A stretch of 64,000 bases of DNA, taken from Serinicoccus chungangensis. GTDB lineage: Bacteria; Actinomycetota; Actinomycetes; Actinomycetales; Dermatophilaceae. The notes under the pieces are model-generated. The model was not told where the DNA came from. It worked only from the letters and a program-made list of their open reading frames with translations, and did not search any database. Within the stretch, counting starts at the first letter, position 1, and every line of letters begins with the position of its first letter. The position numbers and the translations under genes are program-made. Shown here piece by piece: positions 3,033 through 62,776 of the stretch. Location: NCBI RefSeq assembly GCF_006337125.1, contig NZ_CP040887.1:2542001-2606000 (forward strand). Direction: 5' to 3'.

Positions 3033-3875
3033 ATGGACACCACGACCCGCACGACCCGGACCGTCACGTTCGCCGAGGACGACCTCGTGCACCTGGAGGT
3101 GAAGAACCACAGCGGCGACGTCGCCGTCCGTTACGACGCCCCGGCGGGCACGGCCGAGGTGACCCTCTCCTGCGCCCGGCCGGTGGACTTCGAGCCGGTC
3201 ACCGCGGTGTCCCAGCACGGTCGGGTCCTCGTCGACGTCCCCGCGCTGGTCAGCCCGGACGGCGGCCGGCGCGGCCTCGCGGTGTCGATCGGGTCCTTCT
3301 CCATCGGCACCGGCCACGAGCGGGTGCACGTGGAGGTCCACCTGCCCGAGCGCACCGAGCTGCGGGTCGGCACCAGGAACGGCGACGTCGTGCTGCAGGG
3401 CGCCGGCGGGGCGGCCACCGTCCGCGCGGGCTCCGGCGACCTGGCCATCGAGGAGGTCGGTGTCCTGCGCGCGAGCACCGGCTCCGGTGACGTGCGGGTG
3501 GGTCGGCTCGTCGCCGGTTCGGTCACGAGCGGGTCCGGCGACGTCGTCGTCGACACCTCCACCGGGCCCGGCCCGCTCGAGGTCCGCTCGGGCAGCGGGG
3601 ACATCCTCGTCCACGACAGCCACCAGGACGCCACCGTCGCCACGGGCAGCGGTGACGTCGACGTCGCCCACGGGCACGGCGAGCTCGCGGTGCGCACGGG
3701 CACCGGTGACGTGCGGGTGCGGGTGCCCCGGGGCATACCGGTTTGGCTCGACCTCTCCAGCGGTCTGGGCGAGGTGCGCCGCGACCTCGAGGGTGCGGGC
3801 GAGCCGGCGCCGGACCAGCACTTCCTGACGGTGGGCGTCCGCACCGGGACCGGGGACATCACCGTGCACCACTGA
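3033..3875 (+). CDS. DUF4097 beta-helix-like repeat protein
   Basis: 280-residue protein of the DUF4097 (putative adhesin) family, function unknown. The ATG at 3033 is preceded by GAGAGGA. The sequence has about eight turns ending in the motif (T/S)G(S/T)GD(V/I/L), spaced roughly every 20 residues: RNGDV, AGSGDL, TGSGDV, SGSGDV, SGSGDI, TGSGDV, TGTGDV and TGTGDI. This is the layout expected of a right-handed parallel beta-helix or roll. There is no signal peptide or membrane segment, so the protein should stay in the cytosol unless exported by an unknown route. Cotranscription with an RHH regulator is a recurrent pairing in actinobacteria (recalled, not checked). A binding or scaffolding role is a guess. 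Confidence 0.8.
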   Translation: MDTTTRTTRTVTFAEDDLVHLEVKNHSGDVAVRYDAPAGTAEVTLSCARPVDFEPVTAVSQHGRVLVDVPALVSPDGGRRGLAVSIGSFSIGTGHERVHVEVHLPERTELRVGTRNGDVVLQGAGGAATVRAGSGDLAIEEVGVLRASTGSGDVRVGRLVAGSVTSGSGDVVVDTSTGPGPLEVRSGSGDILVHDSHQDATVATGSGDVDVAHGHGELAVRTGTGDVRVRVPRGIPVWLDLSSGLGEVRRDLEGAGEPAPDQHFLTVGVRTGTGDITVHH

Positions 3876-3892
3876 GCGGGCAGGATGGAGGG

Positions 3893-4342
3893 ATGCAGAT
3901 CCTCCCCCTGTCCCCCGACCACGCGGACGCCGCCGCCCGGCTGTGGGCGGAGTGCGGGCTGACGCGCCCCTGGAACGACCCGCAGGCGGACTTCCGGATG
4001 GCGGTGTCGGGCCCGGCCTCGCAGGTCCTCGGCGCGCTGGCCGACGACACCCTCGTCGGCACCGTCATGGTGGGGCACGAGGGGCACCGCGGGTGGATCT
4101 ACTACCTCGCCGTCGCGCCGGAGCACCGGGGCGAGGGGCTCGGCAGGACGCTCGTGCGGGCCGCCGAGGACTGGGTGGAGAGCCAGGGCGTCCCCAAGGT
4201 CATGCTCATGATCCGGGCCGAGAACGACGAGGTCGCCCGGCTCTACGAGGACCTGGGATACGTCGACCAGGGCGTGCGGGTGCTCGGCCGGTTCCTCGAC
4301 GAGGACCTGCAGCGGATGCGCGAGGAGACCGCCGGCGGCTAG
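3893..4342 (+). CDS. GNAT acetyltransferase, YpeA-like
   Basis: 149-residue acetyltransferase closely resembling E. coli YpeA in length and motifs. Visible are RPWNDP near residue 25, GTVMVGHEGHRGWIYYLAV (motifs D/A), the acetyl-CoA loop HRGEGLGRTLV (Q/RxxGxG/A), and ARLYEDLGY near the C-terminus. The acceptor substrate is not known. A CAGGAT hexamer ends 6 bases before the ATG, and GGAGGG lies between them, so translation could be leaderless or SD-driven. The stop codon overlaps that of convergent nuoC1 by 4 bases (4339-4342). Confidence 0.9.
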   Translation: MQILPLSPDHADAAARLWAECGLTRPWNDPQADFRMAVSGPASQVLGALADDTLVGTVMVGHEGHRGWIYYLAVAPEHRGEGLGRTLVRAAEDWVESQGVPKVMLMIRAENDEVARLYEDLGYVDQGVRVLGRFLDEDLQRMREETAGG

Positions 4343-4959
4343 TCGGGCCGCGGGCCCCAGGACGGGTCGGGGACGCCGGGCGGCAGCAGCCGCTTGCGCG
4401 GCCGTCGCCCGCTCGGGGGCGTCTCGCCCGACCCCTCCCCCGGCTCCTTGGCCCCCGGCCACGGCTTGGACGCGCGCGCGGCGAGCACGAAGTCCTTGCG
4501 CAGCGGCGTCCCCTCGAAGCCCTCCGGCAGCAGCAGCGGCCGCAGCCCGAGCCCCGTGCCGTCGTCGAAGCCCTCGACGGCGAGGCCGAACATCTCGTGC
4601 GTCTCCCGCTCGTGCCAGGCCGCGCCGGGGAAGAGGTCGGTCACCGAGCGCAGCGCGTCGCCCTCCGGCACCCGGGTGCGCAGCAGGAGCCGGCTCAGCC
4701 CGCCCGGCCCGGGGGCCCGGACCCGGAGCAGGTGGCACAGGACCTCGATGCCGGGGGCGAGCGTCTCCTCCGGGGCGTCGTCCGCCGCCACGTCGTCGCC
4801 CTGGTCCGTGGCTTCGCGCTCCTGCGGGGCGTCGCTCTCGTCCACGGCGGAGAGCCAGTCGAAGAAGGCATACCCCTCCTCGCGGGCGGCGCGGACGGCC
4901 TCGTGCCATCCCTCCACGGGGACGCGACGGGTGGCGGCGTGCGGGGCGGCACCGGGCAT
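4339..4959 (-). CDS. nuoC: NuoC-like subunit of the second complex I, isolated from other nuo genes
   Basis: 206-residue homologue of the 30-kDa peripheral-arm subunit. The core signature WHERETHEMFGLAVEGFDD, the phrase LLLPEGFEGTPLRKDF, and the basic C-terminal tail identify it. It is a single-gene unit: GNAT ypeA-like converges on its stop, and the ECF sigma gene diverges from its start. Canonical clusters place nuoC between nuoB and nuoD; here nuoB1 is 3.3 kb away and nuoD is absent. A TAGGCT -10 box ends 6 bases before the ATG, suggesting its own leaderless promoter. An acidic insertion (about residues 45-66, rich in D/E/A) separates the N-terminal strand from the core. Confidence 0.88.
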   Translation of the reverse strand: MPGAAPHAATRRVPVEGWHEAVRAAREEGYAFFDWLSAVDESDAPQEREATDQGDDVAADDAPEETLAPGIEVLCHLLRVRAPGPGGLSRLLLRTRVPEGDALRSVTDLFPGAAWHERETHEMFGLAVEGFDDGTGLGLRPLLLPEGFEGTPLRKDFVLAARASKPWPGAKEPGEGSGETPPSGRRPRKRLLPPGVPDPSWGPRPD

Positions 4960-4965
4960 GCCTCG

Positions 4966-4971
4966 AGCCTA
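4966..4971 (-). promoter_or_regulatory. -10 box TAGGCT of nuoC1
   Basis: On the minus strand TAGGCT is followed by six bases and then the ATG of nuoC1. This matches the TANNNT-N6/7-start geometry of leaderless actinobacterial transcripts. No purine-rich ribosome site lies in the six-base gap. No -35 box is obvious. Confidence 0.55.
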
Positions 4972-5051
4972 GCCCGACGACTCCCCCGGTCCTGCGCAGG
5001 TCGCTCGCCGGACGGACGGCGACCCGAGGGACGCGCGCTCCAGCGACGCGT

Positions 5052-5105
5052 GGAGACCCGTGTCGAGGGATGAGCCGGGAGGTCTCCGACCGGGCGCGAT
5101 AACCT
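5052..5105 (+). promoter_or_regulatory. Promoter of the sigma factor/kinase operon with inverted repeat
   Basis: TAACCT at 5100-5105 ends 7 bases before the ATG at 5113, so the sigma mRNA is probably leaderless. Upstream, GGAGACC (5052-5058) and GGTCTCC (5081-5087) form a 7-bp inverted repeat about 29 bp centre to centre, a possible regulator site. A TAACCT preceded by CGGGCG also lies upstream of the lipoprotein gene (6984-6989), hinting at a shared promoter class. This is suggestive only. Confidence 0.4.
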
Positions 5106-5112
5106 CCCCCTC

Positions 5113-6944: not shown

Positions 6945-7050
6945 CCCCGCGAGGGGCCGACCCGGTCCCGGGCGTCCCGGGCGTAACCTTCTGACCCTCC
7001 GTGCCGACCTACCTCCTGTCAGCACCAGTCCACGACCACGAGGAGCACCC

Positions 7051-8285: not shown

Positions 8286-8291
8286 GGGGGC

Positions 8292-8897
8292 TCACCCGTG
8301 GTCCGGTGGTGCGACCAGGCCACGGGTGACCTCCGCCCCGGTGACGGGGCGGTCGGCATACCTCGAGCCGTGCCGCGCCCGCGCCCGGCCGGGCGTCTCC
8401 GCGGCGATCTGCTCCTGCAGGGTGACGATGCCGTGGAGCAGCGCCTCGGGACGCGGCGGGCAGCCCGGCACGTAGACGTCGACCGGGATGAGCTGGTCGA
8501 CCCCCTTGGTGACCGAGTAGCTGTCCCAGTAGGGCCCGCCGGAGTTGGAGCAGGCACCGAAGGAGATGACGTACTTCGGCTCCGGCATCTGGTCGTAGAG
8601 CCGACGGATCGCCGGGGCCATCTTGTCGGTGACCGTGCCCGAGACCACCATGAGGTCGGACTGGCGCGGCCCCGGGGCGAACGGGATCACCCCGAGCCGG
8701 ATGAAGTCGTGCCGGGCCATGGAGGCGCTGATGAACTCGATCGCGCAGCAGGCCAGACCGAAGTTGAAGACCCACAGGGAGTACTTCCGCCCCCAGTTGA
8801 GCACCACCTGGACCGCGCGGGGGGCCCGCTCGACCGGGGCACCGACGCGCGGGGTCGGCAGGCTGGTGGTCTGCGGCCCGCTCACCTGCTCGTCCAC
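8292..8897 (-). CDS. nuoB: NuoB-like subunit of the second complex I (N2 cluster)
   Basis: 201-residue peripheral-arm subunit holding the terminal [4Fe-4S] cluster N2 that reduces quinone. All four ligands are present: C50 and C51 (LACCAIEF), C116 (GACSNSGG) and C146 (PGCPPRPE). The GTG start lies one base after the nuoA1 stop. The C-terminal tail beyond about residue 165 is longer and more basic than in the second NuoB (184 residues at 41761-42315). The intact ligands argue that this second complex I is functional rather than a decaying copy. Confidence 0.94.
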
Positions 8898-8898
8898 G

Positions 8899-9258: not shown

Positions 9259-9263
9259 CGGTC

Positions 9264-9269
9264 AGCCTA
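9264..9269 (-). promoter_or_regulatory. -10 box TAGGCT of nuoA1 embedded in an upstream stop codon
   Basis: The minus-strand TAGGCT uses the TAG stop of the LpqF-like gene as its first three bases and is followed after 5 bases by GTG, or after 8 by ATG, of nuoA1. It is identical to the nuoC1 hexamer, so the two isolated nuo fragments may share promoter architecture. Confidence 0.5.
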
Positions 9270-10760: not shown

Positions 10761-10810
10761 GACCGCCTCCTCACGTGTCCCCCCATCCCAGCACGTGTGC
10801 CTCGAGGGCG

Positions 10811-10829: not shown

Positions 10830-10832
10830 GGG

Positions 10833-11582
10833 TCAGCCGCGGGCCGCGCGCAGCGCGTCGCCGGCCTGGACGGCATACCCCCCGCCGAAGAGGAGGACGT
10901 GCACGAGCAGCGGCACGGTCTGGAACACGGCGGTCCTGCGCTCCCAGCCCTCGGACAGGGGGAACGCCTCGACGTAGGCCGCGAGCACCCGTCCGCTGAA
11001 CCCGCCGAAGAGCTGCATCATCGCGAGGTCCACCTCCCGGTGGGCGTAGTGCGCGCACGGGTCGACGAGCCAGCTGCGGCCGCGGTCGTCGACGAGCCGG
11101 TTGCCGGCCCAGAGGTCCCCGTGGACCAGGGTCGGCGGCTCGACCGGGCCCAGGTGCTCGGCCCCCAGCGCCCGGGCGTCGGCCAGCGCCGACGGGTCCA
11201 GCCGACCGGACTCCACGGCCCGACGGGCCAGCGGCACGACCCGCCGGTCGAGCCAGGACTCCGCGAGGGTGTCGCACGGGGCGAGGTCCACCGGGCAGTC
11301 GCCGAGGTAGGCCGTGGGCTCGCCGTCCACCGCGCCGTACCGCTCCCCCGTGGTCCGGTGCAGGGCCGCCAGCTCGCGCCCGAAGGCCTCCTCCGAGGCG
11401 GCGGTGCGGTGGCCGCCGGAGGGCACCTGCTCGATGCTGATGCCGGTGCGCGAGACCGCCAGCACCTCGGGCACCCGCGCCCCCGCCGCGGCGAGCGCCC
11501 GCAATCCCGTGGCCTCCCGGTCGAAGAACAGGGTGGGCGCGTCCGCGCGGGTCTTGGTGAAGGGTTCGTCCGGCCGGGTCAT
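10833..11582 (-). CDS. Fructosamine kinase family protein
   Basis: 249-residue cytosolic kinase of the fructosamine-3-kinase/aminoglycoside-phosphotransferase fold. It shows LFFDREATGLRALAAAG (start of the N-lobe), the catalytic loop THGD-like LVHGDLWAGN near residue 153, and LVDPCAHYAHREVDLAMMQL (metal-binding D and the ExD helix). Bacterial members phosphorylate ketosamines formed by protein glycation so they fall off (deglycation). It stands back to back with a low-molecular-weight phosphatase gene 41 bases away. In many actinobacteria these two are neighbours, which suggests a shared repair theme (recalled association). Confidence 0.88.
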   Translation of the reverse strand: MTRPDEPFTKTRADAPTLFFDREATGLRALAAAGARVPEVLAVSRTGISIEQVPSGGHRTAASEEAFGRELAALHRTTGERYGAVDGEPTAYLGDCPVDLAPCDTLAESWLDRRVVPLARRAVESGRLDPSALADARALGAEHLGPVEPPTLVHGDLWAGNRLVDDRGRSWLVDPCAHYAHREVDLAMMQLFGGFSGRVLAAYVEAFPLSEGWERRTAVFQTVPLLVHVLLFGGGYAVQAGDALRAARG

Positions 11583-11623: not shown

Positions 11624-12130
11624 ATGCACATCATGACCGTCTGCCTGGGCAACGTCTGCCGCTCCCCCGCCGCCGAGGCGGTCCTCGTCCGCTCGCTCGA
11701 CGAGGCCGGCATCGAGGGCGTGAGCGTGAGCTCGGCCGGGACGGCCGACTACCACGTGGGTGAGCGGCCGAACCCGGCCTCCGTCACCGAGGGCGAGCGC
11801 CGCGGGTATGCCTTCACCACGCGGGGGGCGCAGTTCGGCGCCGACGACTTCGACCGGGCGGACCTCGTCCTCGCCATGGACTCCTCGAACGAGGACGACC
11901 TGCTGGCGCTGGCGCGCACGCCCGAGGAGGCGGCCAGGGTGGTGCGGCTGGGCGCCTTCGCCCCGGACGCGGGCGAGGGCGTCCGTGACGTGCCCGACCC
12001 GTGGGGGCTGTCGCGCGAGGCGTTCGTGGCGATGTACGACCAGGTCGAGGAGGCCGTGGCCGGGCTGGTCGCCGCGATCCGGGAGGGCCGCGTCGAGGAG
12101 GTCGTCACCGCGCAGCGGGCCCGGCGCTGA
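11624..12130 (+). CDS. Low-molecular-weight protein tyrosine phosphatase
   Basis: 168-residue phosphatase with the signature P-loop C7-LGNVC-R13-S14 and the general acid D125 in VPDPWG, both intact. SSAGTADYHVGERPNP is the usual substrate-groove loop. It hydrolyses phosphotyrosine, or possibly phospho-sugar or phospho-arginine intermediates. A weak -10 (GACAGT, 11612-11617) ends 6 bases before the ATG. A second Met at codon 4 is an alternative start. The stop is 2 bases from the convergent SDR stop. The kinase partner is not known. Confidence 0.92.
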   Translation: MHIMTVCLGNVCRSPAAEAVLVRSLDEAGIEGVSVSSAGTADYHVGERPNPASVTEGERRGYAFTTRGAQFGADDFDRADLVLAMDSSNEDDLLALARTPEEAARVVRLGAFAPDAGEGVRDVPDPWGLSREAFVAMYDQVEEAVAGLVAAIREGRVEEVVTAQRARR

Positions 12131-14503: not shown

Positions 14504-16411
14504 TTGTCTATTGACATGTCTTCTACTCCACTGCACCAGCTCGAGCGGGTCGTGATCCGTTTCGCCGGGGACTCCGGCGACGGGATGCAGCTCACCGGCG
14601 ACCGCTTCACCTCCGACACCGCGGCCCTGGGCAACGACCTGTCCACGCTGCCGAACTTCCCGGCCGAGATCCGCGCCCCCCAGGGCACGCTGCCGGGCGT
14701 CAGCTCCTTCCAGGTCCACTTCGCCGACCACGACATCGCCACCCCCGGGGACGCGCCCGACGTCCTCGTCGCGATGAACCCGGCGGCGCTCAAGGCCAAC
14801 CTGCCGGACCTGCCGCGGGGCGCGACGGTCATCGCCAACGCCGACGAGTTCACCCGGCGCAACCTCGCCAAGGTGGGGTATGCCGCCAACCCGCTGGAGG
14901 ACGACTCCCTCGCCGACGCGGGCTACCACGTGCACGCCCTGCCGCTGACGTCGATGACGGTCGAGGCGCTCGCCGGGTTCGACGGGCTGACCCGCAAGGA
15001 GAAGGAGCGGGCCAAGAACATGCTGGCCCTGGGCCTGCTGTCCTGGCTCTACTCGCGCGACACCGCCTCGACCGAGGCCTTCCTGCGCGCCAAGTTCGCG
15101 CAGGCGCCGGAGATCCTCGAGGCCAACCTCACCGCGCTGCGCACCGGTCACGCCTACGGCGAGACCACCGAGGACTTCGCGGTGCGCTACCAGGTGGCGC
15201 CGGCGCCGATGGCCCCCGGGACCTACCGCACCATCACCGGCAACCAGGCGCTGGCGCTGGGGCTGGTCGCCTCCGCCTACCGGACCGGGCTGCCGCTGGT
15301 GCTCGGCTCCTACCCCATCACCCCCGCCTCGGACGTGCTGCACCAGCTGTCCACGCTCAAGGCGCACGGCGTCACCACGCTGCAGGCCGAGGACGAGATC
15401 GCCGCGGTCGGGATGGCGCTCGGCGCCAGCTTCGGCGGGTCCCTCGGGGTGACGACGACCTCGGGCCCGGGCCTGGCGCTCAAGAGCGAGACCATCGGGC
15501 TCGCCGTGGCGACCGAGCTGCCGCTGCTCGTCATCGACATCCAGCGCGGCGGCCCCTCGACCGGTCTGCCGACCAAGACCGAGCAGGCCGACCTGCTGCA
15601 GGCCCTACACGGCCGCAACGGCGAGTCGCCGGTCGCCGTCGTGGCCGCCCAGTCGCCGACCGACTGCTTCGACGCGGCCCTGGAGGCGGTCCGGATCGCC
15701 ACGACCTACCGCACCCCGGTCATCCTGCTGTCGGACGGCTACCTCGGCAACGGCTCCGAGCCCTGGCAGATCCCGGCGGCCGCGCAGCTGCCCGACCTCA
15801 CCGTCCAGCACGCCACCGAGCCCAACGCCACCGACGAGCGGGGCGAGCCGGTCTTCCATCCCTACCTGCGGGACGACCAGACCCTGGCGCGGCCCTGGGC
15901 GGTGCCCGGCACCCCGGGGCTGGAGCACCGCATCGGCGGGATCGAGAAGGCCGACGTCACCGGCAACATCTCCTACGACCCGGCCAACCACGACCGGATG
16001 GTGCGCCTGCGGCAGGCCAAGATCGGCGCGATCGCCGACTCCATCCCTCCCCTGGAGGTGGACGACCCCAGCGGCGAGGCGCGGGTCCTCGTCCTCGGGT
16101 GGGGGTCGACCTACGGCCCGATCGGGGCCGCCACCCGGCTCGTGAGGGCCACCGGCGCGAAGGTCGCGCGGGCCCACCTGCGCCACCTCAACCCCTTCCC
16201 CGCCGACCTCGGTGACGTGCTGCGCCGCTACGACCGGGTCGTCGTGCCCGAGATGAACCTCGGCCAGCTCGCGCTGCTGCTGCGGGGGACCTACCTCGTC
16301 GACGTCCGCAGCCATACCCAGGTCCGGGGCCTGCCGTTCACCGCCGGTGAGCTCGCGCAGGTGGTCCACGAGAACCTCATGGAGGTCCAGTCGCAGGAGG
16401 TGACGGTATGA
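14504..16411 (+). CDS. korA: 2-oxoglutarate:ferredoxin oxidoreductase, alpha (gamma-alpha fusion)
   Basis: 635-residue KorA. The N-terminal ~195 residues are the gamma domain (RFAGDSGDGMQLTGDRF); the rest is the alpha/pyrimidine-binding domain (GSYPITPASDVLHQLSTL, AEDEIAAVGMALGASFGG) and a C-terminal transketolase-like domain. With KorB it oxidises 2-oxoglutarate with CoA to succinyl-CoA and reduces ferredoxin, a low-potential TCA-cycle step. TTG at 14504 is chosen because GGGGAG sits 7 bases upstream; the in-frame ATG at 14516 would be 19 bases away. It overlaps korB as ATGA. Its proximity to the NuoEFG-less complex I genes suggests a ferredoxin link (inference). Confidence 0.95.
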   Translation: MSIDMSSTPLHQLERVVIRFAGDSGDGMQLTGDRFTSDTAALGNDLSTLPNFPAEIRAPQGTLPGVSSFQVHFADHDIATPGDAPDVLVAMNPAALKANLPDLPRGATVIANADEFTRRNLAKVGYAANPLEDDSLADAGYHVHALPLTSMTVEALAGFDGLTRKEKERAKNMLALGLLSWLYSRDTASTEAFLRAKFAQAPEILEANLTALRTGHAYGETTEDFAVRYQVAPAPMAPGTYRTITGNQALALGLVASAYRTGLPLVLGSYPITPASDVLHQLSTLKAHGVTTLQAEDEIAAVGMALGASFGGSLGVTTTSGPGLALKSETIGLAVATELPLLVIDIQRGGPSTGLPTKTEQADLLQALHGRNGESPVAVVAAQSPTDCFDAALEAVRIATTYRTPVILLSDGYLGNGSEPWQIPAAAQLPDLTVQHATEPNATDERGEPVFHPYLRDDQTLARPWAVPGTPGLEHRIGGIEKADVTGNISYDPANHDRMVRLRQAKIGAIADSIPPLEVDDPSGEARVLVLGWGSTYGPIGAATRLVRATGAKVARAHLRHLNPFPADLGDVLRRYDRVVVPEMNLGQLALLLRGTYLVDVRSHTQVRGLPFTAGELAQVVHENLMEVQSQEVTV

Positions 16412-39519: not shown

Positions 39520-40933
<1,414 letters not shown>

Positions 40934-51071: not shown

Positions 51072-52385
51072 GTGACCACCTCGCTGCCCGCCCCCGTCGA
51101 CCTCACGCCCGATGACCTGCCGCGCATCCGGGACCTCGTGGAGACCGTCTGGTTCTCCGTCGTCCCGGGCAAGACGCTCCAGCACCTCGAGGAGGAGATC
51201 GACCTGCGGCACGCCCGCGGGATCGAGCGACCGGACGGCCCGCTGCCCGGCGAGCCGGCCTCCGCGGCGCCGCTGCTCGGGCTCTACAGCGCCTTCGACC
51301 TGGGGCTCACGGTCCCGGCGGCCGCCGGCGGCCTGACCCGCGTGCCGATGGACGGGCTGACCATGGTGAGCGTGCACCCGGACGCGCGCCGGCGGGGTGT
51401 CCTGCGCCGGATGATGACCGACCACCTGCACCGGGTGCACGAGCGCGGAGACGCCGCCCTCGCGGGGCTGCACGCGTCCGAGCCGGCGATCTACGGGCGC
51501 TTCGGCTACGGCCACGCGAGTGCCGACGCCAAGCTGACGCTCGGGCGCGGGACGACGCTCACCGCCCCGCCGGCGCTCACGGCCCGGGCCGACGAGATCC
51601 GCACCCACGTCACCGACCTCGACGGCGAGGAGGCGCTCGCCGTGGTCCACCGGACCCACCTGGCCTGCGCCCGGGTGACCCTCGGCGCGGTCACCCGGCC
51701 GGAGTCCACGGAGCAGTCGTGGTTCGCCTTCCGGGACCACCCCAAGGCCAGGGCCGGCAAGGAGCCGAACCGGGTGATGTTCGCCCGGCGGGGCGAGGAG
51801 CTGACCGGGTATGCCGTCTTCCGCCGGGAGAGCAGGTGGGACGACGGCCAGCCCGCGGGCGAGGTGAGCGTCGCCGAGCTTACGGCCGCCGACGACGCGT
51901 CCCTGCTCGCCCTCGCCCGTCGGCTGGTCGACATGGACCTCACCGGACGCACCGTCTTCTGGTCCCGGCCCACGGACGACCCGCTGGCCTGGTGGGCGGG
52001 CGGGCCCCGCTCGGCCGGCATGCGGGTCTTCGACGCCCTCTGGCTGCGGCTGGTGGACGTGCCGCGGGCGCTGGGCGACCGGGGCTACGCCGCGGGCGCG
52101 CCGCTGGACCTCGTCGTCCAGGTCGAGGACGACGTCTGCCCGTGGAACGCCGGGCGGTGGCGGCTGCAGGTCGACGGCGACGGGGCCGCGCAGGTGGGGA
52201 CCACCGACGCCGAGCCGGACCTGGTGGCGCCCGTGGCGGCGCTGGGGGCGGCCTACCTCGGCGGGCGGACGCTGCTCGCCCAGGTGGCCACCCTCGGCGT
52301 CCAGGAGCTCACCCCGGGAGCGGTGGCCGGCCTGTCGCGGGCGATGCGGGCCGACCGCGAGCCGGTGCCGGCCATCGGGTTCTAG
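51072..52385 (+). CDS. Eis-family N-acetyltransferase
   Basis: 437-residue protein with the Eis layout: two GNAT domains (about 1-280; LTMVSVHPDARRRGVLRRMM is the acetyl-CoA loop, GLHASEPAIYGRFGYGHAS the second motif) and a C-terminal SCP2-like sterol-carrier domain (about 300-437). Mycobacterial Eis acetylates aminoglycosides at several positions and also host proteins; most homologues are untested. The final residues PAIGF provide the terminal carboxylate used as catalytic base in Eis. GTG 51072 follows CAGACT by 7 bases. Confidence 0.88.
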   Translation: MTTSLPAPVDLTPDDLPRIRDLVETVWFSVVPGKTLQHLEEEIDLRHARGIERPDGPLPGEPASAAPLLGLYSAFDLGLTVPAAAGGLTRVPMDGLTMVSVHPDARRRGVLRRMMTDHLHRVHERGDAALAGLHASEPAIYGRFGYGHASADAKLTLGRGTTLTAPPALTARADEIRTHVTDLDGEEALAVVHRTHLACARVTLGAVTRPESTEQSWFAFRDHPKARAGKEPNRVMFARRGEELTGYAVFRRESRWDDGQPAGEVSVAELTAADDASLLALARRLVDMDLTGRTVFWSRPTDDPLAWWAGGPRSAGMRVFDALWLRLVDVPRALGDRGYAAGAPLDLVVQVEDDVCPWNAGRWRLQVDGDGAAQVGTTDAEPDLVAPVAALGAAYLGGRTLLAQVATLGVQELTPGAVAGLSRAMRADREPVPAIGF

Positions 52386-52467: not shown

Positions 52468-54204
52468 TCAGCGCAGGGCGTCGCGCACGCGTCGGTGGCT
52501 CGCCCGGTCGACCGGCACCTCCAGCACCCGCAGACCCTCGGACCGCCCCGCCAGGCTCTCCCGCAACGCCGCCAGGGTGGCCAGCCGCTCGTGCCGGACG
52601 CCGTGGGCGGCGCAGAGGGCGGCCAGGTCGGTGCCGTGCGGGGTGCCGAACACCCGCTCGGCCGCGGCCGCGGCGCCGGGGTCGTCGAGGCGGGCGGGGT
52701 CGCCGTACTCCAGCGTCGAGAAGATCCCGCCCCCGTCGTCGTTGACCACGACGACGGTGAGGTCGGGGCGCGGCTCTCCGGGCCCGATGAGCAGGCCGCC
52801 CGCGTCGTGCAGGAAGGTCAGGTCACCCATGAGGGCGACGACGCGGGGTAGGCCCTCCGGTGCCTCGTCACCCTGCACGGCGAGCGCCACGCCCACCGCG
52901 GCGGACACCGTGCCGTCGATGCCGGCCAGACCTCGCTGGGCGACCACCCGCGCCGCGGCGGCGGTGCCGTGCAGCGACAGGGCCAGGTCGCGCGGCACGG
53001 TCGAGGAGCCGAGCACGAGCACGTCGTCCTCCCCCAGGGCCTCGGCCACCACCCCGGCGACGCCGACCCCGGTCGGCTCCGCACCGGCGGCCGCGGCCAC
53101 CGTCGCCGACCGCTGCGCACCCGCCGCGGTCCAGGCGTGGACCCACCCGGAGGCCTCGGGGTGCCGCGGCGGCGCGGTCACCAGCGCGCCGGGGCCGTGG
53201 ACCCGGCTCACCACGTGGGAGGGGTCGGTCCAGCGCTCCTGCGCCGAGACGTGCTCGACGAGCACCCCGGGGAGCCGCAGCAGCGCACCGAGCTCGCGGA
53301 AGAGCGTCAGGCGCCCCACGACGACCACGCGGTCCGGCACCAGCTCCGTGAGCTCCCCGCGGGCGACGGCGGAGGCGACGAGCGGGCCGTGCGGCACCAC
53401 GCCGGGCCCGGTCGGGAGCCGGCCGAAGGGCTCGGCCAGGACCGGCCAGCCCGCCTCCTGCGCCCAGGAGAGGGCCCGGTCGGCCAGCGCGGGGTCGGGC
53501 AGGTCGCCGAGCAGCACGAGCGTCCGCCGGCCCGGCCCGATCGGGGCGGCCACGGGCCCCGGGGCCGGTGCCACGGCGACCCAGGGGGCCCCGCCGGCCC
53601 GCCCGGCGAGCACGTCGTCGGCGGTGTCCGGCTGCCCGGGCCCGGGCGCGAGGGGGTCGCGGAAGGACACGTTGAGGTGGACGGGCCCGGGGCCGGCGCC
53701 GCGGAGGGGTCCGGCGTCGCCCGCGGCGGCCAGCGCGCGGCATACCGTCGAGCGCCAGTGCGCGCCCGCGGCCCGGGTCACCCCCTCGGGGGCCGGCAGG
53801 TCGACCTCCCACCGCACCGACCCGGCGAAGACGCCGGGCTGGACCGTCGTCTGGTTGGCCCCGGTGCCGCGCAGCTCGGACGGACGGTCGGCGGACAGCA
53901 CGACGAGGGGTATGCCGCTGTGCGCGGCCTCGAGCACCGCCGGGTGGAGGTGGGCGACCGCGGTCCCCGAGGTGGTGACGACCGGCACGGGTGCACCGCC
54001 GCCGCGCGCCAGCCCCAGCGCGAGGAAGCTGGCGCTGCGCTCGTCGATGCGGACGTGCAGGCGCAGGCGGCCCGCGCGGTCCGCCTCCTCCAGGGCGTAG
54101 GCGAGCGGCGCGGAGCGCGACCCGGGGGCCAGCACGGCCTCGCGCACCCCGCCGCGCACCAGCTCGTCGACGAGGACGGCGGCCAGGGCGGTCGAGGGGT
54201 GCAC
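52468..54204 (-). CDS. menD: SEPHCHC synthase (menaquinone pathway)
   Basis: 578-residue thiamine-diphosphate enzyme that adds the succinyl group from 2-oxoglutarate to isochorismate. PGSRSAPLAYAL, the catalytic-region HVRIDERSASFLALGLAR, TTSGTAVAHLHPAVLEA, LSADRPSELRGTGANQT and the TPP-binding MGDLTFLHDAGGLL ... VVVNDDGGGIFSTLEY are all present. Acts straight after MenF. GTG start 54204. It competes with KorAB for 2-oxoglutarate, which links it to the same metabolic node. Confidence 0.95.
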   Translation of the reverse strand: MHPSTALAAVLVDELVRGGVREAVLAPGSRSAPLAYALEEADRAGRLRLHVRIDERSASFLALGLARGGGAPVPVVTTSGTAVAHLHPAVLEAAHSGIPLVVLSADRPSELRGTGANQTTVQPGVFAGSVRWEVDLPAPEGVTRAAGAHWRSTVCRALAAAGDAGPLRGAGPGPVHLNVSFRDPLAPGPGQPDTADDVLAGRAGGAPWVAVAPAPGPVAAPIGPGRRTLVLLGDLPDPALADRALSWAQEAGWPVLAEPFGRLPTGPGVVPHGPLVASAVARGELTELVPDRVVVVGRLTLFRELGALLRLPGVLVEHVSAQERWTDPSHVVSRVHGPGALVTAPPRHPEASGWVHAWTAAGAQRSATVAAAAGAEPTGVGVAGVVAEALGEDDVLVLGSSTVPRDLALSLHGTAAAARVVAQRGLAGIDGTVSAAVGVALAVQGDEAPEGLPRVVALMGDLTFLHDAGGLLIGPGEPRPDLTVVVVNDDGGGIFSTLEYGDPARLDDPGAAAAAERVFGTPHGTDLAALCAAHGVRHERLATLAALRESLAGRSEGLRVLEVPVDRASHRRVRDALR

Positions 54205-54268
54205 GCCCCCGATGGTCGCACGGAGGCCGGGCCGGTCGACCGATGCCCGCTATGCGCGCCGTTCCGCC

Positions 54269-54274: not shown

Positions 54275-54282
54275 GGGCGCTC

Positions 54283-55782: not shown

Positions 55783-58032
55783 GCCGCCCGCCCGTTCGCT
55801 CGCCGACGACCTGCGGGGCCGGACCGACGACGAGCTCACCCGGCTGCTGCAGGCCCGGCCCGACCTGGCGCGACCCGCCCCGGCCGACGTGACCGCCCTC
55901 ACCGGGCGCGCCACCACCCGCGCCAGCGTGCAGCGGGCGCTGGAGGGCCTCGACCTCGCGCACCTGCAGGCGCTGGAGGCCATGATCGTGGCGTCGCCGG
56001 CCTCGGTCGACGCCGTCGCGGCGCTGCTCGGCGCGCACGAGGCGCGGGCGACCGAGCTCGTCGACGACCTGCACGCGCTGGCCCTGTGCTGGCGCTCCCC
56101 GGAGGGTATGCGGCCCGCCCGGGCCGTGGCGGACGTCGTCGGCGTCCCCGGTGGGCTGGGTCCGGCAGGGGCCGGGGTGCCCGCGGGTGCGTCGCTGGAG
56201 GCCGCGCTCGCCGGGCTGCAGCCGCGCCACCGCAGCCTGCTCGAGGCGCTGACCTGGGGCCCGGCCCGCGGGGCGGTGGCGGCGGTGCCCGAGGAGGGTG
56301 ACGCCTCGCCGGTGTCGCTGGCCGCGCAGGAGCTGGTCGAGGCGGGGCTGCTGCAGCGCGAGGACGAGGGCCACGTCCTGCTCCCCCGCAGGTGGCGCTC
56401 GCCCTGCGGGGCGGCCGGCTGCACCGCCACCCGGCCGTCGAGGCGCCGGCCGTGGAGCACACCACGGTGGACCAGGACGTCGTGGACGCCGCGGCGGGTG
56501 GCCGCGCCGCCGAGCTCGTCGTGCTCGTCACCGAGGTGGTCGAGGAGTGGGGGGCCCGCCCGCCGCGGGTGCTGCGCTCGGGCGGTCTGGCGGTGCGCGA
56601 CCTCGGCCGGCTGTCCGCCCACCTGGAGACCGGCACCGAGGAGGTCGCCTGGCTGCTGGAGACGGTGCACGCCGCCGGCCTGGTCGCGGTCGACGACGGG
56701 CGGCGGCAGGCCGGTGGCGAGGAGTCTTCCGTGTGGGCGCCGACGGCGCTGGCCGACGCCTGGCTGGAGGAGCCCGCCGGCGCGCGCTGGGCCACGCTCG
56801 CGCAGGCCTGGTGGACCACCTCGGCGGCGCCCGGGCTCGTCGGGACCACCGACGGCGGACGCGTCAACGTGCTGTCGACCGCGACGTCATACCCCCTGGC
56901 GCGGCAACGCCGGCACGACACCCTGCGCGCCCTCGCGAGTCTGCCGCCGGGCGCGGTCGGCGCGCCGGAGCCGCTGGCCGAGCTGCTGCGCTGGCGGCAC
57001 CCGCTGCGCTCGGCGCGGTCCACCGGCGACCACGGGGTCGGCCCGGGCACGGCGCTGCGCGAGGCCGAGTGGGCGGGCCTGACCGGTCGCGGTGCCCTGT
57101 CGACCCCGGGACGCGCCGTCGTGGCCGGTGACCCCGCGGCCGACCTCATGGAGCCCCTGGTGCCCCCGGCGGTGGACCACGTGCTGCTGCAGGCCGACCT
57201 CACCGCCATCGCGCCCGGCCGTCTCGACGGCCCCGCCCGCACCCTGCTGCGCCTCGTGAGCGACGTCGAGTCCCGCGGGGGCGCGACGGTGCACCGCTTC
57301 GGCGAGCAGAGCGTGCGCCGCGCCCTCGACCTCGGCTGGACGGCGGACCGGGTGCTCGAGGAGCTGGCCGCCGTGTCGCGGACCGGGGTCCCGCAGCCGC
57401 TGGACTACCTCGTGCGCGACGTCGCCCGCCGCCACGGCGTGGCCCGGGTCGGGGCGTGCGCGGCCTACCTGCGCTGCGACGACGCCGCCCTCCTGGACCG
57501 CATCGAGCACGACCGCGCCCTGGGGATGCTGCAGTGGCGGCGGGTCGCCCCGACCGTGCTCGTCTCACCCGTCCCGGCCCCGACGGTGATGGACCTGCTG
57601 CGCGAGGAGCAGTACGGCCCGGTCGCGGACGGCGCCGACGCCGGCCTCGCGCTCGCGGTGCAGCGCCACCGGGCCCCCCGCACCACCACGCCGGCCGTGC
57701 GGGTGAGCGGGGTCGACGAGACCGTCGCCCGGCAGGTCGTCGGGGTGGTGCGCCGCGGCGACGCGTCCGCCGCAGCCGCCGGCGGCGGTGACGGCGACGC
57801 GGGGACGGACGCCAGCACGGACCCGGTCGTCGTGAGCGCGACGGTGCGGGAGGCCGCGGTGGACGGCCAGGCCCTGTGGATCGGGTATGCCGACGACGCC
57901 GGCGGCGTCGCCACCCACCTGGTGCGACCGCTGGCGGTCGAGGGCGGCCGGCTGCGCGCGAGCGTGGGCGACGCCGACGTCACCCGCACCTTCCTGCTGC
58001 ACCGGATCACGAGGGTGAGCCCGGCGCAGTGA
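55775..58032 (+). pseudogene. Helicase-associated (XPB/Ssl2-like C-terminal) domain gene with a frameshift
   Basis: One conserved actinobacterial protein, about 750 residues, is split over two frames. Frame 1 runs from TTG 55775 (LADDLRGRTDDELTRLLQAR, helix-rich N-terminus) to ...EGHVLLPR at 56389. The continuation ALALRGGRLHRHPAVE lies in the frame starting at 56392. Adding one G between 56389 and 56390 restores LLPREVALALRGG, the expected join. Frame 1 otherwise continues with meaningless sequence to 57082. The second part keeps the PF13625-like region (VLLQADLTAIAPGRLDGPA, PLDYLVRDVARRHG). Either a real mutation or a one-base sequencing error; the intact remainder and GTGA coupling to the next gene favour error or a very recent event. 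Confidence 0.8.
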
Positions 58033-60170
58033 GCCCGAGCCGCACCGACACCCGCACGGACCGCCGTGGCGAGGCCGCTCCCCCGAGCCCGTCGCGGGAG
58101 GCGACGTCTCCGGGCGAGGGCAGCGGCGCCACCGCGCACCCCTCGCTGACCGCCCGCTACCGCCGCGAGCTGCACGGCCTGCGCGGGCTGGCGATCGCCC
58201 TGGTCGTCGTCTTCCACGTCTTCGGCGACGGCCGCGTGTCCGGCGGCATCGACGTCTTCCTCGCGATCTCCGGCTTCCTCTTCACCGGCATGCTCGCGCG
58301 CGAGGCGGTGCGCACCGGCGGCCGGGTGGACCTCGGGCGCTACCTGGGGCGGATCCTGCGTCGCCTGCTCCCCACGGCCGTGCTCGTGCTGGCCGCGACC
58401 TGGCTGGCCGGCCGGCTGCTCCTGCCGGAGACCCGCTGGGTGCAGCTGGGACGCGAGGTCCGGGCGAGCCTGACCTACGTCGAGAACTGGGAGCTCATCG
58501 CCTCCCAGCTGGGCTACGGCGCGGCGGGCGCCTCGACCAGCCCGCTGCAGCACTTCTGGTCGATGTCGGTCCAGGGGCAGTTCTACCTCCTGTGGCCGGT
58601 GGTCGTGGTGCTGGGCGTCCTCCTGGCGCGGGGGCTGCGGGTCGGGCCGCGAGCGGTGCTGCTGGCCGTCGTCGGCGCGGTGGGCGTCGGGTCGTTCGGG
58701 TATGCCGCGTGGCTGCACCACGCTGACCAGCAGGTGGCCTACCTGCACACCGGCGCCCGCCTGTGGGAGCCGGCGCTGGGCGGGGTGGTGGCGCTGCTGG
58801 CGCTCGACGCCCGGTTGCCGCGCGCCCTGCGGCTGCTGCTGGGGTGGGCCGGGGTCGGCCTGGTCGCCAGCTCGGGACTGGTCCTCGACGGCGGGGCGCT
58901 CTTCCCGGGCCCGGCGGCCCTGTGGCCGGTGGGAGGCTTCGCGCTGGTCATGGCGGCGGGGACGACGGGCAGCCGGTGGGGAGCCGACCGCTGGCTGTCC
59001 GGGCGGCTGCTGGGCTGGGTGGGCGACATCGCCTACCCGCTCTTCCTGTGGCACTGGCCGGTCGTCGTCTACACCCTCGTGGTGACCGGGAAGGAGCGTC
59101 TCGACCTCGCCGACGGAGCGCTGGTCATCGCCGCGTCGCTGCTGCTGGCGCAGCTGACGCACACCCTCGTGGAGGGCCCGGTCACCGCCTCGCCGATGCG
59201 CCGGCCGTGGCTCGTCGTCGGGGTCGGCGCCCTGGTCGTGGCCGTGGGGGCGGGTCTGGTCGGCGGCTGGACGGCCACCCTGGTGCGCGAGCGGGAGGTG
59301 GCGCTGGCGCAGGCGGCGCAGGACTCGCCCGACCACCCCGGGGCGGCCGCCCTCCACGAGCCCGGCTTCGGCAACACCGGCGCCACCCCGGTCCCGGCGC
59401 TCGCCGCGGCGCCGCAGGACAACGCCGACGTCTACGGCCAGGGGTGCATCCAGGGCCACGAGGACACGGCGGCCGCGTCGGAGGTGCTGGTGTGCCCCGG
59501 CACCGACCCGGGCGCCGAGCACACGGTGGTGGTGACCGGCGGCTCGCACGTCGTCCAGTTCGTGCCCGCCCTGGAGGTGGCGGCCGAGCAGCAGGGGTGG
59601 AACCTCGTCGTGGTGAGCCGCTCCGGCTGCCACCTCACGACCAACACCGGCGGCTACCCGGAGCGCACCGACGCCGTCCCGACGGACAGCTGCGTCGCCT
59701 GGAACACCGGCTTCCTGGAGACCGTCGAGGAGCTCGACCCGGACGCGGTCGTGACCCTCGGGACGACCACCCAGCCCGGGTCCGAGCAGGTGTCGCGCGG
59801 CTTCGTCGAGGTGTGGCGCGAGCTCGGCCGGCGCGGGATCGACGTCATCGGGCTGCGCGACACGGCGCGGATGCCGCAGGACGTCCCCGACTGCCTCGCC
59901 GAGCACCCGGACGAGCCGCAGGCCTGCGCCATGCCGCGCGACCCGGCATACCGTGACACCGCGCCCTACCTCGGTCGGGACGACCTGCCGGCCAACATCT
60001 CCTTCGTCGACGTGGTGGACCAGATCTGCACGGAGCGGACGTGCCCGGCGGTCGCGGGCGACGTCGTGGTCTACAGCGACCACAGCCACGTCACCGCGAC
60101 CTACATGCGCACCCTCGCCCCGGCCCTGGACGCGCGGCTGCGCGAGGCGGCACCCCGGCTCTACCGCTGA
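58029..60170 (+). CDS. Acyltransferase-3 / SGNH fusion (cell-surface O-acetyltransferase)
   Basis: 713-residue OafA-like protein. A membrane acyltransferase-3 domain (about 45-385; RYRRELHGLRGLAIALVVVF with the active-site His in VFHVFG, GGIDVFLAISGFLFTG) is followed by an external SGNH domain (about 480-710). The nucleophile motif reads TGGSHVVQF, with glycine where GDSH is usual; the Asp/His pair is in YSDHSHVT. Such enzymes move acetyl groups onto cell-wall glycans or antibiotics. GTG start overlaps the frameshifted gene's stop (GTGA). Confidence 0.9.
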   Translation: MSPSRTDTRTDRRGEAAPPSPSREATSPGEGSGATAHPSLTARYRRELHGLRGLAIALVVVFHVFGDGRVSGGIDVFLAISGFLFTGMLAREAVRTGGRVDLGRYLGRILRRLLPTAVLVLAATWLAGRLLLPETRWVQLGREVRASLTYVENWELIASQLGYGAAGASTSPLQHFWSMSVQGQFYLLWPVVVVLGVLLARGLRVGPRAVLLAVVGAVGVGSFGYAAWLHHADQQVAYLHTGARLWEPALGGVVALLALDARLPRALRLLLGWAGVGLVASSGLVLDGGALFPGPAALWPVGGFALVMAAGTTGSRWGADRWLSGRLLGWVGDIAYPLFLWHWPVVVYTLVVTGKERLDLADGALVIAASLLLAQLTHTLVEGPVTASPMRRPWLVVGVGALVVAVGAGLVGGWTATLVREREVALAQAAQDSPDHPGAAALHEPGFGNTGATPVPALAAAPQDNADVYGQGCIQGHEDTAAASEVLVCPGTDPGAEHTVVVTGGSHVVQFVPALEVAAEQQGWNLVVVSRSGCHLTTNTGGYPERTDAVPTDSCVAWNTGFLETVEELDPDAVVTLGTTTQPGSEQVSRGFVEVWRELGRRGIDVIGLRDTARMPQDVPDCLAEHPDEPQACAMPRDPAYRDTAPYLGRDDLPANISFVDVVDQICTERTCPAVAGDVVVYSDHSHVTATYMRTLAPALDARLREAAPRLYR

Positions 60171-60187
60171 GCCGGGCGCGGCCCGGC
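60171..60187. terminator. Hairpin between the acyltransferase gene and the M13 peptidase gene
   Basis: GCCGGGC (60171-60177), loop GCG, GCCCGGC (60181-60187): perfect 7-bp stem directly after the TGA stop, serving convergent genes (stop at 60201 on the other strand). Confidence 0.65.
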
Positions 60188-60200
60188 ACCCGGAGGGCGG

Positions 60201-62183
60201 CTAGAAGATCCGCACCCGGTCCTCGGGGGCCAGCCAGAGCGCGTCGCCCTCCTGGGTCCCGAAGGCCGCGTGGAAGGCGTCGACGTTGCGCACGGTGTTG
60301 GCCCGCAGGTCGGCCGGGGCGTGCGGGTCGATGGAGAGCAGCCGCCGGGCCTCCTCCTCCCGGGCGACCGTCCGCCACACCGAGCCCCACCCGAGGAAGA
60401 AGCGCTGGTCGCCGGTCCAGCCGTCCAGCTCGGGGGCCGAGCCCTCGGTGGCGATGGTGTAGGCCAGGTGCGCCAGCTCGAGCCCGCACAGGTCGCCGAT
60501 GTTCTCGCCGACCGTGAGACCGCCGTTGACCGTCGCGGTCCCGCCCGGGAGGTCCCGCGGGGAGAGGGTGTCGAACTGCTCGACGAGCTGCTGGCTGCGG
60601 GCGTCGAAGGCCTCGCGGTCGGCCTCGGTCCACCAGTCGGTGAGCGAGCCGTCCCCGGCATACCTGCTGCCCTGGTCGTCGAAGCCGTGACCGATCTCGT
60701 GGGCGATGACCGCCCCGATGCCGCCGTAGTTGGCGGCGTCGTCGGCGTCGACGTCGAAGAACGGCGGCTGCAGGATGGCGGCGGGGAAGACGATCTCGTT
60801 GAGCATCGGGTGGTAGTAGGCGTTGACGGTCTGCGGCGTCATGAGCCACTCGTCGTGGTCGATCGGCCCGCCGACCTTGGCCAGCTCGCGGTCGGTCTCG
60901 AAGGCGGCGCCCCGGCGGACGTTGCCGACGAGGTCGCCGGGGTCCAGCGCGTAGGCCGTGTAGTCGCGGAAGGTGTCCGGGTGGCCGATCTTGGGGCGGA
61001 AGCTCGCGAGCTTCTCCACGGCGCGCTCCCGGGTCTGCGGGCCCATCCACTCCAGCTCGCCGATGCGGCGGCGGAAGGCCTCGGTGACGTGGGCGACGAG
61101 CTCGGTCATGCGCTCGCGGGCGGCCGGGGGGAAGTGCGCCTCGACGTAGAGCTGCCCGGCGGCCTCGCCCAGCAGCGCCTCGACGATGCCCACGCCGCGC
61201 TTCCACCGCTCCTTGTTGGCGGGGGTGCCGGACAGGGCCCGGCCGTGGAAGTCGAAGTGCGCCGCGACGAGGTCGTCGGTGAGGTAGGGGGCGAGCGCGT
61301 CGAGCAGCCGGACCACGAGCCAGGCCTGCCAGTCGGCGAGCGGCACCTGCGTCAGCGTCTCCCCCAGCGCGGCGAGCACGTCGGGCTGGCGGGCGACGAC
61401 GGCGTCCAGCGCACCCGCGGGGGCGCCCAGGCCGTCGGCGAAGGCGTCCCAGTCCATCCCGGGGGTGCGCTCGGCGAGCTCGCCGCGGGTGAGCCGGGTG
61501 TAGCTCTTCACCGCGTCACGGGCGGCGACCCGGTCCCAGTGGGCGGCGGCCAGCCGCTCCTCCAGGGCGTAGACGCGGTCGACGGCGTCGCCGCCGAGGA
61601 TCTCCTCCAGGCCCGTCCCGGCCAGCGCGGGAGCGGCGAGCTCCAGGAGCCGGGCGAGGTAGGTGCGGTAGGCCTCGCGCACCGACGCGTGCTCCTCCGC
61701 GGTGTAGTACGCCTCGTCGGGCAGACCGATCCCGCCCTGGTGGAGGTAGGCGATGTAGCTCTCCGGGTCCCCCGCGTCGGCGGTCACCCAGAGGTGCGTG
61801 AGGCCGTCGACGCCCTCGCGCTGCAGCTGCGCGGACAGCCGGACGAAGGCGCTGACGTCCTCGACCTGCGCGATCCGCTGCAGCGGGTCGGTCAGGGGGG
61901 TCAGGCCGACGCGCTCGACCTGGTCGGTGTCCATGAAGCTCGCGTAGAGCGCCCCCACCTTGCCCGCCGGGGTGTCCAGCTCGGGCTGCGCCTGGGCCGC
62001 CTGCTCGATGAGCTCGCGCACGGACGTCTCGGCGTTCTCCCGCAGCAGGTCGAACGCGCCGTAGCGCGAGCGGTCCTCCGGGATCGTCGCCGACGCGAGC
62101 CAGCCCCCGTTGACGTGGCCGAACAGATCGTCCTGGGGGCGGACGTCGGCGTTCATCCCTGCGCGGTCGATGCCTGACTTCAT
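60201..62183 (-). CDS. M13-family zinc metallopeptidase
   Basis: 660-residue neprilysin/PepO-type peptidase. The zinc site is complete: HEIGHGFDDQG and the downstream GENIGDLCGL (third ligand E, plus D); VNAYYHPMLNEIVFPAAILQ supplies the substrate-binding NAYY-type motif. There is no signal peptide or membrane anchor, so it is cytosolic, as are most bacterial M13 enzymes. It should cut peptides smaller than about 40 residues. TACCGT ends 6 bases before the ATG, a leaderless promoter. Confidence 0.94.
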   Translation of the reverse strand: MKSGIDRAGMNADVRPQDDLFGHVNGGWLASATIPEDRSRYGAFDLLRENAETSVRELIEQAAQAQPELDTPAGKVGALYASFMDTDQVERVGLTPLTDPLQRIAQVEDVSAFVRLSAQLQREGVDGLTHLWVTADAGDPESYIAYLHQGGIGLPDEAYYTAEEHASVREAYRTYLARLLELAAPALAGTGLEEILGGDAVDRVYALEERLAAAHWDRVAARDAVKSYTRLTRGELAERTPGMDWDAFADGLGAPAGALDAVVARQPDVLAALGETLTQVPLADWQAWLVVRLLDALAPYLTDDLVAAHFDFHGRALSGTPANKERWKRGVGIVEALLGEAAGQLYVEAHFPPAARERMTELVAHVTEAFRRRIGELEWMGPQTRERAVEKLASFRPKIGHPDTFRDYTAYALDPGDLVGNVRRGAAFETDRELAKVGGPIDHDEWLMTPQTVNAYYHPMLNEIVFPAAILQPPFFDVDADDAANYGGIGAVIAHEIGHGFDDQGSRYAGDGSLTDWWTEADREAFDARSQQLVEQFDTLSPRDLPGGTATVNGGLTVGENIGDLCGLELAHLAYTIATEGSAPELDGWTGDQRFFLGWGSVWRTVAREEEARRLLSIDPHAPADLRANTVRNVDAFHAAFGTQEGDALWLAPEDRVRIF

Positions 62184-62189
62184 GGGGTC

Positions 62190-62195
62190 ACGGTA
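62190..62195 (-). promoter_or_regulatory. -10 box TACCGT of the M13 peptidase gene
   Basis: The minus strand reads TACCGT, six bases, then the ATG at 62183. Typical leaderless spacing. The rest of the gap to 62277 shows no gene. Confidence 0.5.
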
Positions 62196-62277
62196 TGCGG
62201 TACGTCCGCCGATGGCGCACCCACCAGGGTTACCGCCGCGTCACCAGCGCGTCGCACCAGGTCGGGTGGGCGGGGTG

Positions 62278-62354
62278 GCCGGCGACACGCCCGTCCCCGG
62301 CGGCTCAGGTGTTCACGTGCGCGGCTGAGCCGGTCGCGCCCGGGCGCGCCGCGG
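62278..62354. repeat. 77-bp direct repeat, copy 1 (terminator hairpin)
   Basis: Identical at 75 of 77 positions to 62680-62756; differences at 62282 and 62336. It contains the hairpin CGGCTCAG (62301-62308) / CTGAGCCG (62325-62332) with a 16-base loop. The stop codon of the small membrane-protein gene (62313) falls in the loop, and its last ~14 codons lie in the repeat. Confidence 0.85.
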
Positions 62355-62609
62355 GACCCACGGCCGCCACACCGCGAGCGCCATGACCGTCCAGAGGCAG
62401 GCCATGACGAGGTAGACACCGAGCAGGTCATCCCCCCACGCCCGTCCACGTGACCAGCCGAGGAGGACGGTGACCCAGGCGAGCACGGCGACGACCGGCG
62501 TGAGCCGACGCATGAGGCGCGGCACGACGTACGTCTCCCTCCCGGCCGCCTCCCGGCGCAGGTCCCCGGCCGATCCTGGGCGCCACCGCCCGTCCTCGCC
62601 CACCGGCAT
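62313..62609 (-). CDS. Small two-helix membrane protein
   Basis: 98-residue hypothetical protein. The N-terminus is polar ([20 protein letters not shown]), followed by two membrane helices at about 38-54 ([17 protein letters not shown]) and 64-86 ([20 protein letters not shown]) and a basic C-terminal tail encoded by the 77-bp repeat. ATG 62609 is preferred to GTG 62615: CATACT ends 7 bases upstream and GGTGGGT lies between. No function recognised. Flanked by both copies of the repeat, so it may have arrived or been duplicated with them. Confidence 0.6.
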
Positions 62610-62679
62610 ACCCACCAGTATGCCGCTCGGGTCATCTCCCCGCCTCTGCGTCGGCCCCGGCGCTCACGGGCGCGCTGCA

Positions 62680-62756
62680 GCCGACGACACGCCCGTCCCC
62701 GGCGGCTCAGGTGTTCACGTGCGCGGCTGAGCCGGTCCCGCCCGGGCGCGCCGCGG
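62680..62756. repeat. 77-bp direct repeat, copy 2 (terminator hairpin)
   Basis: Second copy, 402 bases from the first, just downstream of the Nudix gene stop (62777, minus strand). The hairpin arms are at 62703-62710 and 62727-62734. It probably terminates the Nudix transcript in the same way copy 1 ends that of the small membrane protein. The 20 bases between it and the Nudix stop hold one GGTATGCC word. Confidence 0.85.
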
Positions 62757-62776
62757 CACACCTCGCAGGTATGCCC

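Follow-up and report, generated by a model that had tools for sequence, protein, structure and literature searches.

The genome of Serinicoccus chungangensis is a single contig of 3,463,442 bases, and the window analyzed here is the whole 64-kb stretch formed by its bases 2,542,001 to 2,606,000. For one protein of the window, the best matches with a name come from uncultured Serinicoccus (98% identical), followed by S. chungangensis (91%) and Ornithinimicrobium species, which places the genome in Dermatophilaceae/Intrasporangiaceae. The window contains 25 exact copies of an 8-base word, GGTATGCC. Its reverse complement, GGCATACC, differs from it; thus, the word is not palindromic. A sequence-only reading of the window had listed these copies, and exact matching returned all of its coordinates and both orientations (13 GGTATGCC and 12 GGCATACC). 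The forward copies lie at 11805-11812, 14877-14884, 20648-20655, 25807-25814, 34704-34711, 40868-40875, 44010-44017, 48258-48265, 51808-51815, 53909-53916, 57884-57891, 58699-58706, and 62768-62775; those on the reverse strand lie at 3732-3739, 4867-4874, 8355-8362, 10872-10879, 22699-22706, 27748-27755, 46511-46518, 48383-48390, 53739-53746, 59945-59952, 60657-60664, and 62605-62612. Based on our own simple gene finder, which supplied all gene predictions in this work, 23 of the 25 copies are located within predicted genes, in line with the reading's description of them as mostly genic. The exceptions are the copy at 62605, which overlaps the end of a predicted gene without being inside one, and the copy at 62768, which falls between predicted genes.

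Against the 25 real copies, 100 dinucleotide shuffles of the window averaged 0.72 copies and never exceeded 4. The excess reported by the sequence-only reading is therefore real, yet its figure of about 12 times over expectation is too low on this null. Permutation of synonymous codons within each predicted gene (200 shuffles) left 1.46 copies on average and no more than 6, versus the 23 coding ones. The coding copies read GYA, RYA, AY, GIP, or GMP, which agrees with the several reading frames described earlier, and the codons that they bring in are rare, as claimed: TAT accounts for 5.8% of Tyr codons, GCA for 2.7% of Ala codons, and ATA for 0.9% of Ile codons. In 20 of 25 copies, GGCATACC is preceded by C, again as noted before. 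The proposed set of one-base variants is less clear, with 40 one-mismatch sites against the roughly 34 sites expected with up to one mismatch.

Genome-wide, GGTATGCC occurs 1,207 times (612 forward and 595 reverse), and the word read backwards (here, the reversed word) occurs 12 times (8 and 4). We sampled 464 kb of this genome (G000; G, g, f, and L denote genomes, genera, families, and loci, respectively), comprising 20 stretches and the window. Each of these 21 stretches holds at least one copy, and GGCATACC is the top over-represented 8-mer in the sample, with 157 copies versus 7.7 under a third-order Markov model. The fuller form is GGTATGCCG, then T or C, at 36 times its expectation; position 9 is G in 129 of the 157 copies, and position 10 has T in 67 copies and C in 49. 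The 9-mer variants of GGTATGCCG that are raised most carry A, C, or T at position 1, where the increase is 5- to 13-fold, or C or T at position 9, and inner variants with at least 10 copies reach at most about 4 times expectation. In the same sample, 122 coding copies compare with 10.7 after synonymous shuffling (maximum of 20 in 100 shuffles), and the corresponding values for a relative, G011, are 108 and 8.9. The string GTATGCC holds 95 of the 149 TAT codons of the sampled genes, and the word occupies all six frame and strand combinations. Its density outside versus inside genes is 0.70 versus 0.295 per kb in G000 and 0.75 versus 0.60 in G011 or, for sites wholly outside genes, 0.53 versus 0.29 and 0.65 versus 0.58. 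Density is not linked to the GC content of the stretch (Spearman 0.15, p 0.51). A low-density region at 394-432 kb was set aside; it carries ordinary genes, among them a tad cluster.

To follow orientation along the replication strands, we placed the origin at dnaA (at the contig start, the gene being recognized by eye) and assumed the terminus to lie opposite. On this map, 73 copies run along replication and 89 are opposed (p 0.24; p 0.48 and 0.58 with two other terminus positions), and the balance that the sequence-only reading saw in the window (13 versus 12) is also seen genome-wide (612 versus 595). The word does not have the strong polarity towards the terminus that is a trait of KOPS and architecture-imparting sequences. 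This lack of strand polarity counts against words of both kinds and also against a Chi-like recombination signal, which would be read by a helicase-nuclease of the RecBCD, AddAB, or AdnAB type and would spare or recombine self DNA. The word resembles Chi sites in being short, non-palindromic, dispersed, and over-represented, and its scarcity beside prophage genes (see below) fits as well; Chi of Escherichia coli is also denser in the core genome (PMC8022716). Yet polarity along the replication strand is among the criteria by which Chi is detected in that work, and the size of the excess, about 11-fold relative to the codon shuffle and 100-fold relative to the reversed word, also speaks against this role, which we regard as unlikely.

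We then examined how the word is distributed among relatives. Across 31 genomes of the genus, GGTATGCC ranges from 38 (G008) to 2,180 (G011) copies, and across 186 genomes of the family (53 genera), from 6 to 2,228. In the order sample (159 genomes), the 147 genomes outside the family hold at most 136 copies, this maximum being found in an 8.3-Mb genome in which the reversed word occurs 33 times. Two genomes that belong to word-rich genera are nearly wordless, G008 (g1) with 38 and G038 (g4) with 20 copies. The word is enriched in close relatives according to the genus and family counts, so the claim that a DNA word rather than a protein feature is at stake has survived both checks named in the sequence-only reading, this one and the codon-controlled count. 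Overall, GGTATGCC is a genome-wide, non-polar word kept, by selection or drive, for its DNA sequence.

One such role would be that of a binding site for an abundant chromosome-organizing protein, either nucleoid associated or involved in segregation. The presence of a copy in every one of the 21 sampled stretches and the equal orientations are consistent with it. However, a 57-fold range in copy number within one genus (38 to 2,180) and the existence of wordless genera would be odd for a housekeeping site, and the copies are not regularly spaced (coefficient of variation, 0.88 and 1.10). An organizing site is, in our view, also unlikely.

The low counts in parts of the family are accompanied by other spellings. 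We counted 8-mers de novo in stretches of 31 family genomes and then counted the resulting words in whole genomes. Several word-poor genomes carry other, related words, CGGATGCCG or CGTACGCCG, and CGTATGCCG is also frequent. Genomes were tallied by hand as having a word if GGTATGCC was present at least 4 times as often as its reversed word and at least 40 times per Mb or if a 9-mer was present at least 150 times per Mb. In 39 of the 53 genera, at least one genome has one of the four words; the 14 genera with none are g2, g11, g12, g16, g27, g28, g29, g31, g32, g36, g38, g39, g46, and g53. Only three genera of the family, g9, g15, and g51, are dense in CGGATGCCG, in all 7 of their genomes (968 to 2,347 copies, 316 to 645 per Mb; reversed word, 72 to 198); in the rest of the family, it does not go above about 130 per Mb (top, G158 of g46, with 445 copies). 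Outside the family, it is dense in 10 of 11 sampled f16 genomes (677 to 3,084 copies; the exception, G244, has 175) and does not exceed about 100 per Mb in the remaining families sampled. CGTACGCCG is dense in 7 of 8 genomes of four genera (923 to 2,522 copies; g35, 3/3; g3, 2/3; g6, 1/1; g7, 1/1), and in g5, it reaches 1,129 copies in G043 and 85 to 415 in the other three genomes. CGTATGCCG is common across many genera, with a maximum of 3,218 in G130, where its reversed word is also raised, suggesting GCCGTATGCCG as the fuller form.

These spellings differ in how far they exceed a codon shuffle. The ratios for CGGATGCC are 5.9 in G178, 6.5 in G064, and 7.3 in G202 of f16. For CGTATGCC, they are 3.8 in G071, 8.2 in G039, and 10.9 in G116, each based on no more than 5 to 7 coding copies. 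CGTACGCC reaches 4.2 in G120, 3.8 in G119, 3.0 in G032, 2.8 in G045, 2.6 in G044, and 1.8 in G114; genomes without such a word give 1.0 (G160), 1.1 (G153), and 1.2 (G184). Given these low CGTACGCC ratios, the CGTACGCCG form is the least secure dialect, and it is doubtful in G114. The latter genome has 761 CGTACGCCG and 4 CGTATGCCG copies versus 44 and 1,361 in its congener G115, and its top raised 8-mer is GTACGGCG; G114 has lost the T form of the word. On a tree of 35 ComEC proteins, with G114 counted as the C form, dialect labels cluster and require 8 changes, the G form accounting for two of them and the C form for two if G114 is counted.

Not every raised word qualifies. In 271 genomes outside the family, CGTAYGCCG exceeds its reversed word by ratios of up to about 7; since G160 reaches 5.9 for CGTACGCCG without any excess over the codon shuffle, such ratios are no evidence of a word. 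A de novo look at about 5 to 20 kb from each of eight genomes of other families included one locus of f16 (L219) that showed CGGATGCC. Pooled Mycobacteriaceae and Micromonosporaceae loci were unusable as a k-mer control, being all one orthologous region. In g27 and g36, GAAGGGGG stands at 4.3 to 5.5 times the codon shuffle and is denser between genes than within them (G082 and G091 of g27 and G123 of g36; loci L136-L140, L207, L251-L252, and L239-L240); it is perhaps an unrelated dialect or another signal. CGATGCGG in g32 and GTACGGCG in G114 both reach 3.4. However, CTGCGCGA is found in nearly all sampled genomes and raised in most, also where dialect words are lacking (relative to the codon shuffle, 1.8-fold in G000 and 3.0-fold in G160), and because of the value in G160, CGATGCGG and GTACGGCG were not counted as dialects. 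With these exclusions, GGTATGCC has related spellings, or dialects, that are abundant in other genera.

Mobile DNA carries fewer of these words than its host genomes. In 24 prophage capsid loci (87 kb), we found 10 dialect words versus 30.6 expected from each genome's mean, and in 20 comEC loci (76 kb), 23 versus 27.9; the two sets differ at p 0.014. One rule was applied to both; from 30 loci of each kind, it removed 6 capsid and 10 comEC loci, as their genomes have no qualifying word. A methylation or self-marking site of a restriction-modification or other defense system would agree with this scarcity, and dialect-like shifts of recognition words are normal for such systems. Restriction sites, however, are as a rule avoided rather than enriched, and the dialects seen here are variations on one core, not unrelated words. 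A related possibility, put forward by the sequence-only reading, is a repair-linked word like HIP1 of cyanobacteria, which shares with GGTATGCC its length and its strong over-representation within genes. HIP1 is a palindromic octamer, and GGTATGCC is not a palindrome, which disfavors this candidate. A mark of either type is very unlikely.

Four features favor a word resembling an uptake signal: it has dialects, it is non-polar, it is scarce beside prophage genes, and its hosts have transformation genes. Among the kinds listed by the sequence-only reading, this one fares best. We consider it probable that GGTATGCC is a DNA uptake sequence with dialects, an Actinomycetota counterpart of the DNA uptake sequence (DUS) of Neisseriaceae and the uptake signal sequence (USS) of Pasteurellaceae. 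In such a system, a surface protein, which probably belongs to a Tad/Flp pilus or is fixed to it, would bind the word on free DNA during natural transformation. Word-bearing DNA would be preferentially imported via ComEA and ComEC and recombined into the chromosome, and this biased uptake would spread the word through the core genome, because tagged fragments would enter more often. A shift in receptor preference could then lead to the word being re-spelled, and the resulting dialect would act as a barrier that limits gene flow from one genus to another.

DUS are likewise present in hundreds to thousands of copies and within genes, and their dialects are related, share a core, and follow lineages; DUS also form inverted pairs (PMC3630211). 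The DUS consensus, ATGCCGTCTGAA (PMC5031613), and the consensus of our genome, GGTATGCCGT, have ATGCCGT in common, an overlap that is probably due to chance. The essential CTG core of DUS is absent from the GGTATGCC word, and the hosts differ in phylum, in cell envelope, and in that Tad rather than type IVa pilus genes were seen here. USS, too, is a non-palindromic 9-base word with hundreds to thousands of copies and variants between species (PMC5031613); its sequence is unrelated, and it belongs to another host group.

The machinery for uptake appears to be in place. The genome has comEA (with SLBB and helix-hairpin-helix domains) beside comEC, as well as a tadA-tadB-tadC-flp-tadE-tadF-tadG cluster, in which flp was recognized by eye and TadF and TadG are below the Pfam cut-off. 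Transformation of Micrococcus luteus needs two tad clusters and comEA/comEC (PMC4322843), and our genome shares with that species comEA/comEC and tad clusters of the same gene order; in the part of the M. luteus account available to us, the term "uptake sequence" has no occurrence. None of these components singles out the genomes with a word. Of the 186 family genomes, 180 carry ComEC, some of them in wordless genera, and its presence was therefore rejected as what gives rise to the word. Neither the number nor the kind of pilus ATPases shows a pattern; in all 14 genomes tested, two or more T2SSE-family ATPases exceed the cut-off. As potential dialect readers, ComEA shows nothing dialect specific by eye and is present in the wordless g46, g53, and g11 as well, and the minor pilins of tad-1 have no clear dialect link in 10 loci.

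In 7 of the 10 loci fetched, tadC of tad-1 is intact. In two genomes, it is interrupted at the same conserved spot (L294 of G114, approximately 2757-3659; L297 of G184, approximately 2042-2899), and in L297, the next gene after the cut tadC, at 2918-4285, encodes a serine recombinase (PF00239 and PF07508). A third tadC (L295 of G178, approximately 1-2767) is cut at a different spot and followed by lower-GC DNA in which one open reading frame resembles DUF262-type proteins, judged by eye alone. The interrupted genes look like the result of mobile elements targeting a putative competence pilus gene, by analogy with prophages that target comK or comYC (PMC4774983).

Several observations weigh against an uptake role. 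Genomes without any of the words also have ComEC, ComEA, and Tad-type ATPases; gene presence hence does not predict the word, and the machinery permits rather than proves this role. G038 keeps an intact tad-1 cluster, yet none of the four words is clearly raised in it, and the other four genomes of its genus have them. We found no receptor, having compared ComEA and the tad-1 pilins by eye in some genomes without a search for ComP, and we know of no report of transformation for the genus. Chi-like or chromosome-binding roles would likewise place words in core DNA. Hairpins point both ways. Of the 7 word-bearing ones, found in 5 of 16 genomes scanned, 6 are intergenic after a gene end, 3 of these between converging genes, which speaks for uptake, but none was found in 484 kb of G000 or 220 kb of G011. 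For DUS, inverted pairs are reported from every genome that has a DUS dialect (PMC3630211). Conservation at orthologous places is equivocal. In L001-L004 (89 to 92% identical), 26 of 29 window words are intact versus 2370 of 3688 8-mers of the same composition, but in the reverse comparison, only 26 of 40 L001-L004 words persist in the window versus 2370 of 3794, which is no excess. For L005-L009 (76 to 78% identical), 15 of 36 window words are kept versus 1369 of 4520 and, in the other direction, 15 of 29 versus 1369 of 5597. Since rows share sites, conservation is only a hint.

A broader proposal is that a monoderm lineage, made up of this family together with one or more further families of the order, takes up DNA sequence specifically, probably via a Tad pilus, with several related dialects acting as gene-flow barriers between genera, and that uptake-sequence-guided transformation would thus have arisen independently a third time in bacteria. 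We hold this proposal tentatively, with the balance lying close to even and tipping slightly towards doubt. Our search of open-licence papers, which is no proof of absence, found no such word reported in Actinomycetota among the papers listed. The consulted part of a 2016 review names two families with DNA uptake sequences, Pasteurellaceae and Neisseriaceae (PMC5031613). If the uptake role of GGTATGCC holds true, an uptake word would be new to Gram-positive bacteria and would be the third case, in a monoderm phylum. With its dialects open to comparison across nearly 200 genomes, one could test in a new cell type how DNA self-recognition arises and drifts. The words would also hint at where natural transformation is active among environmental actinobacteria and could aid the genetic tractability of these organisms.

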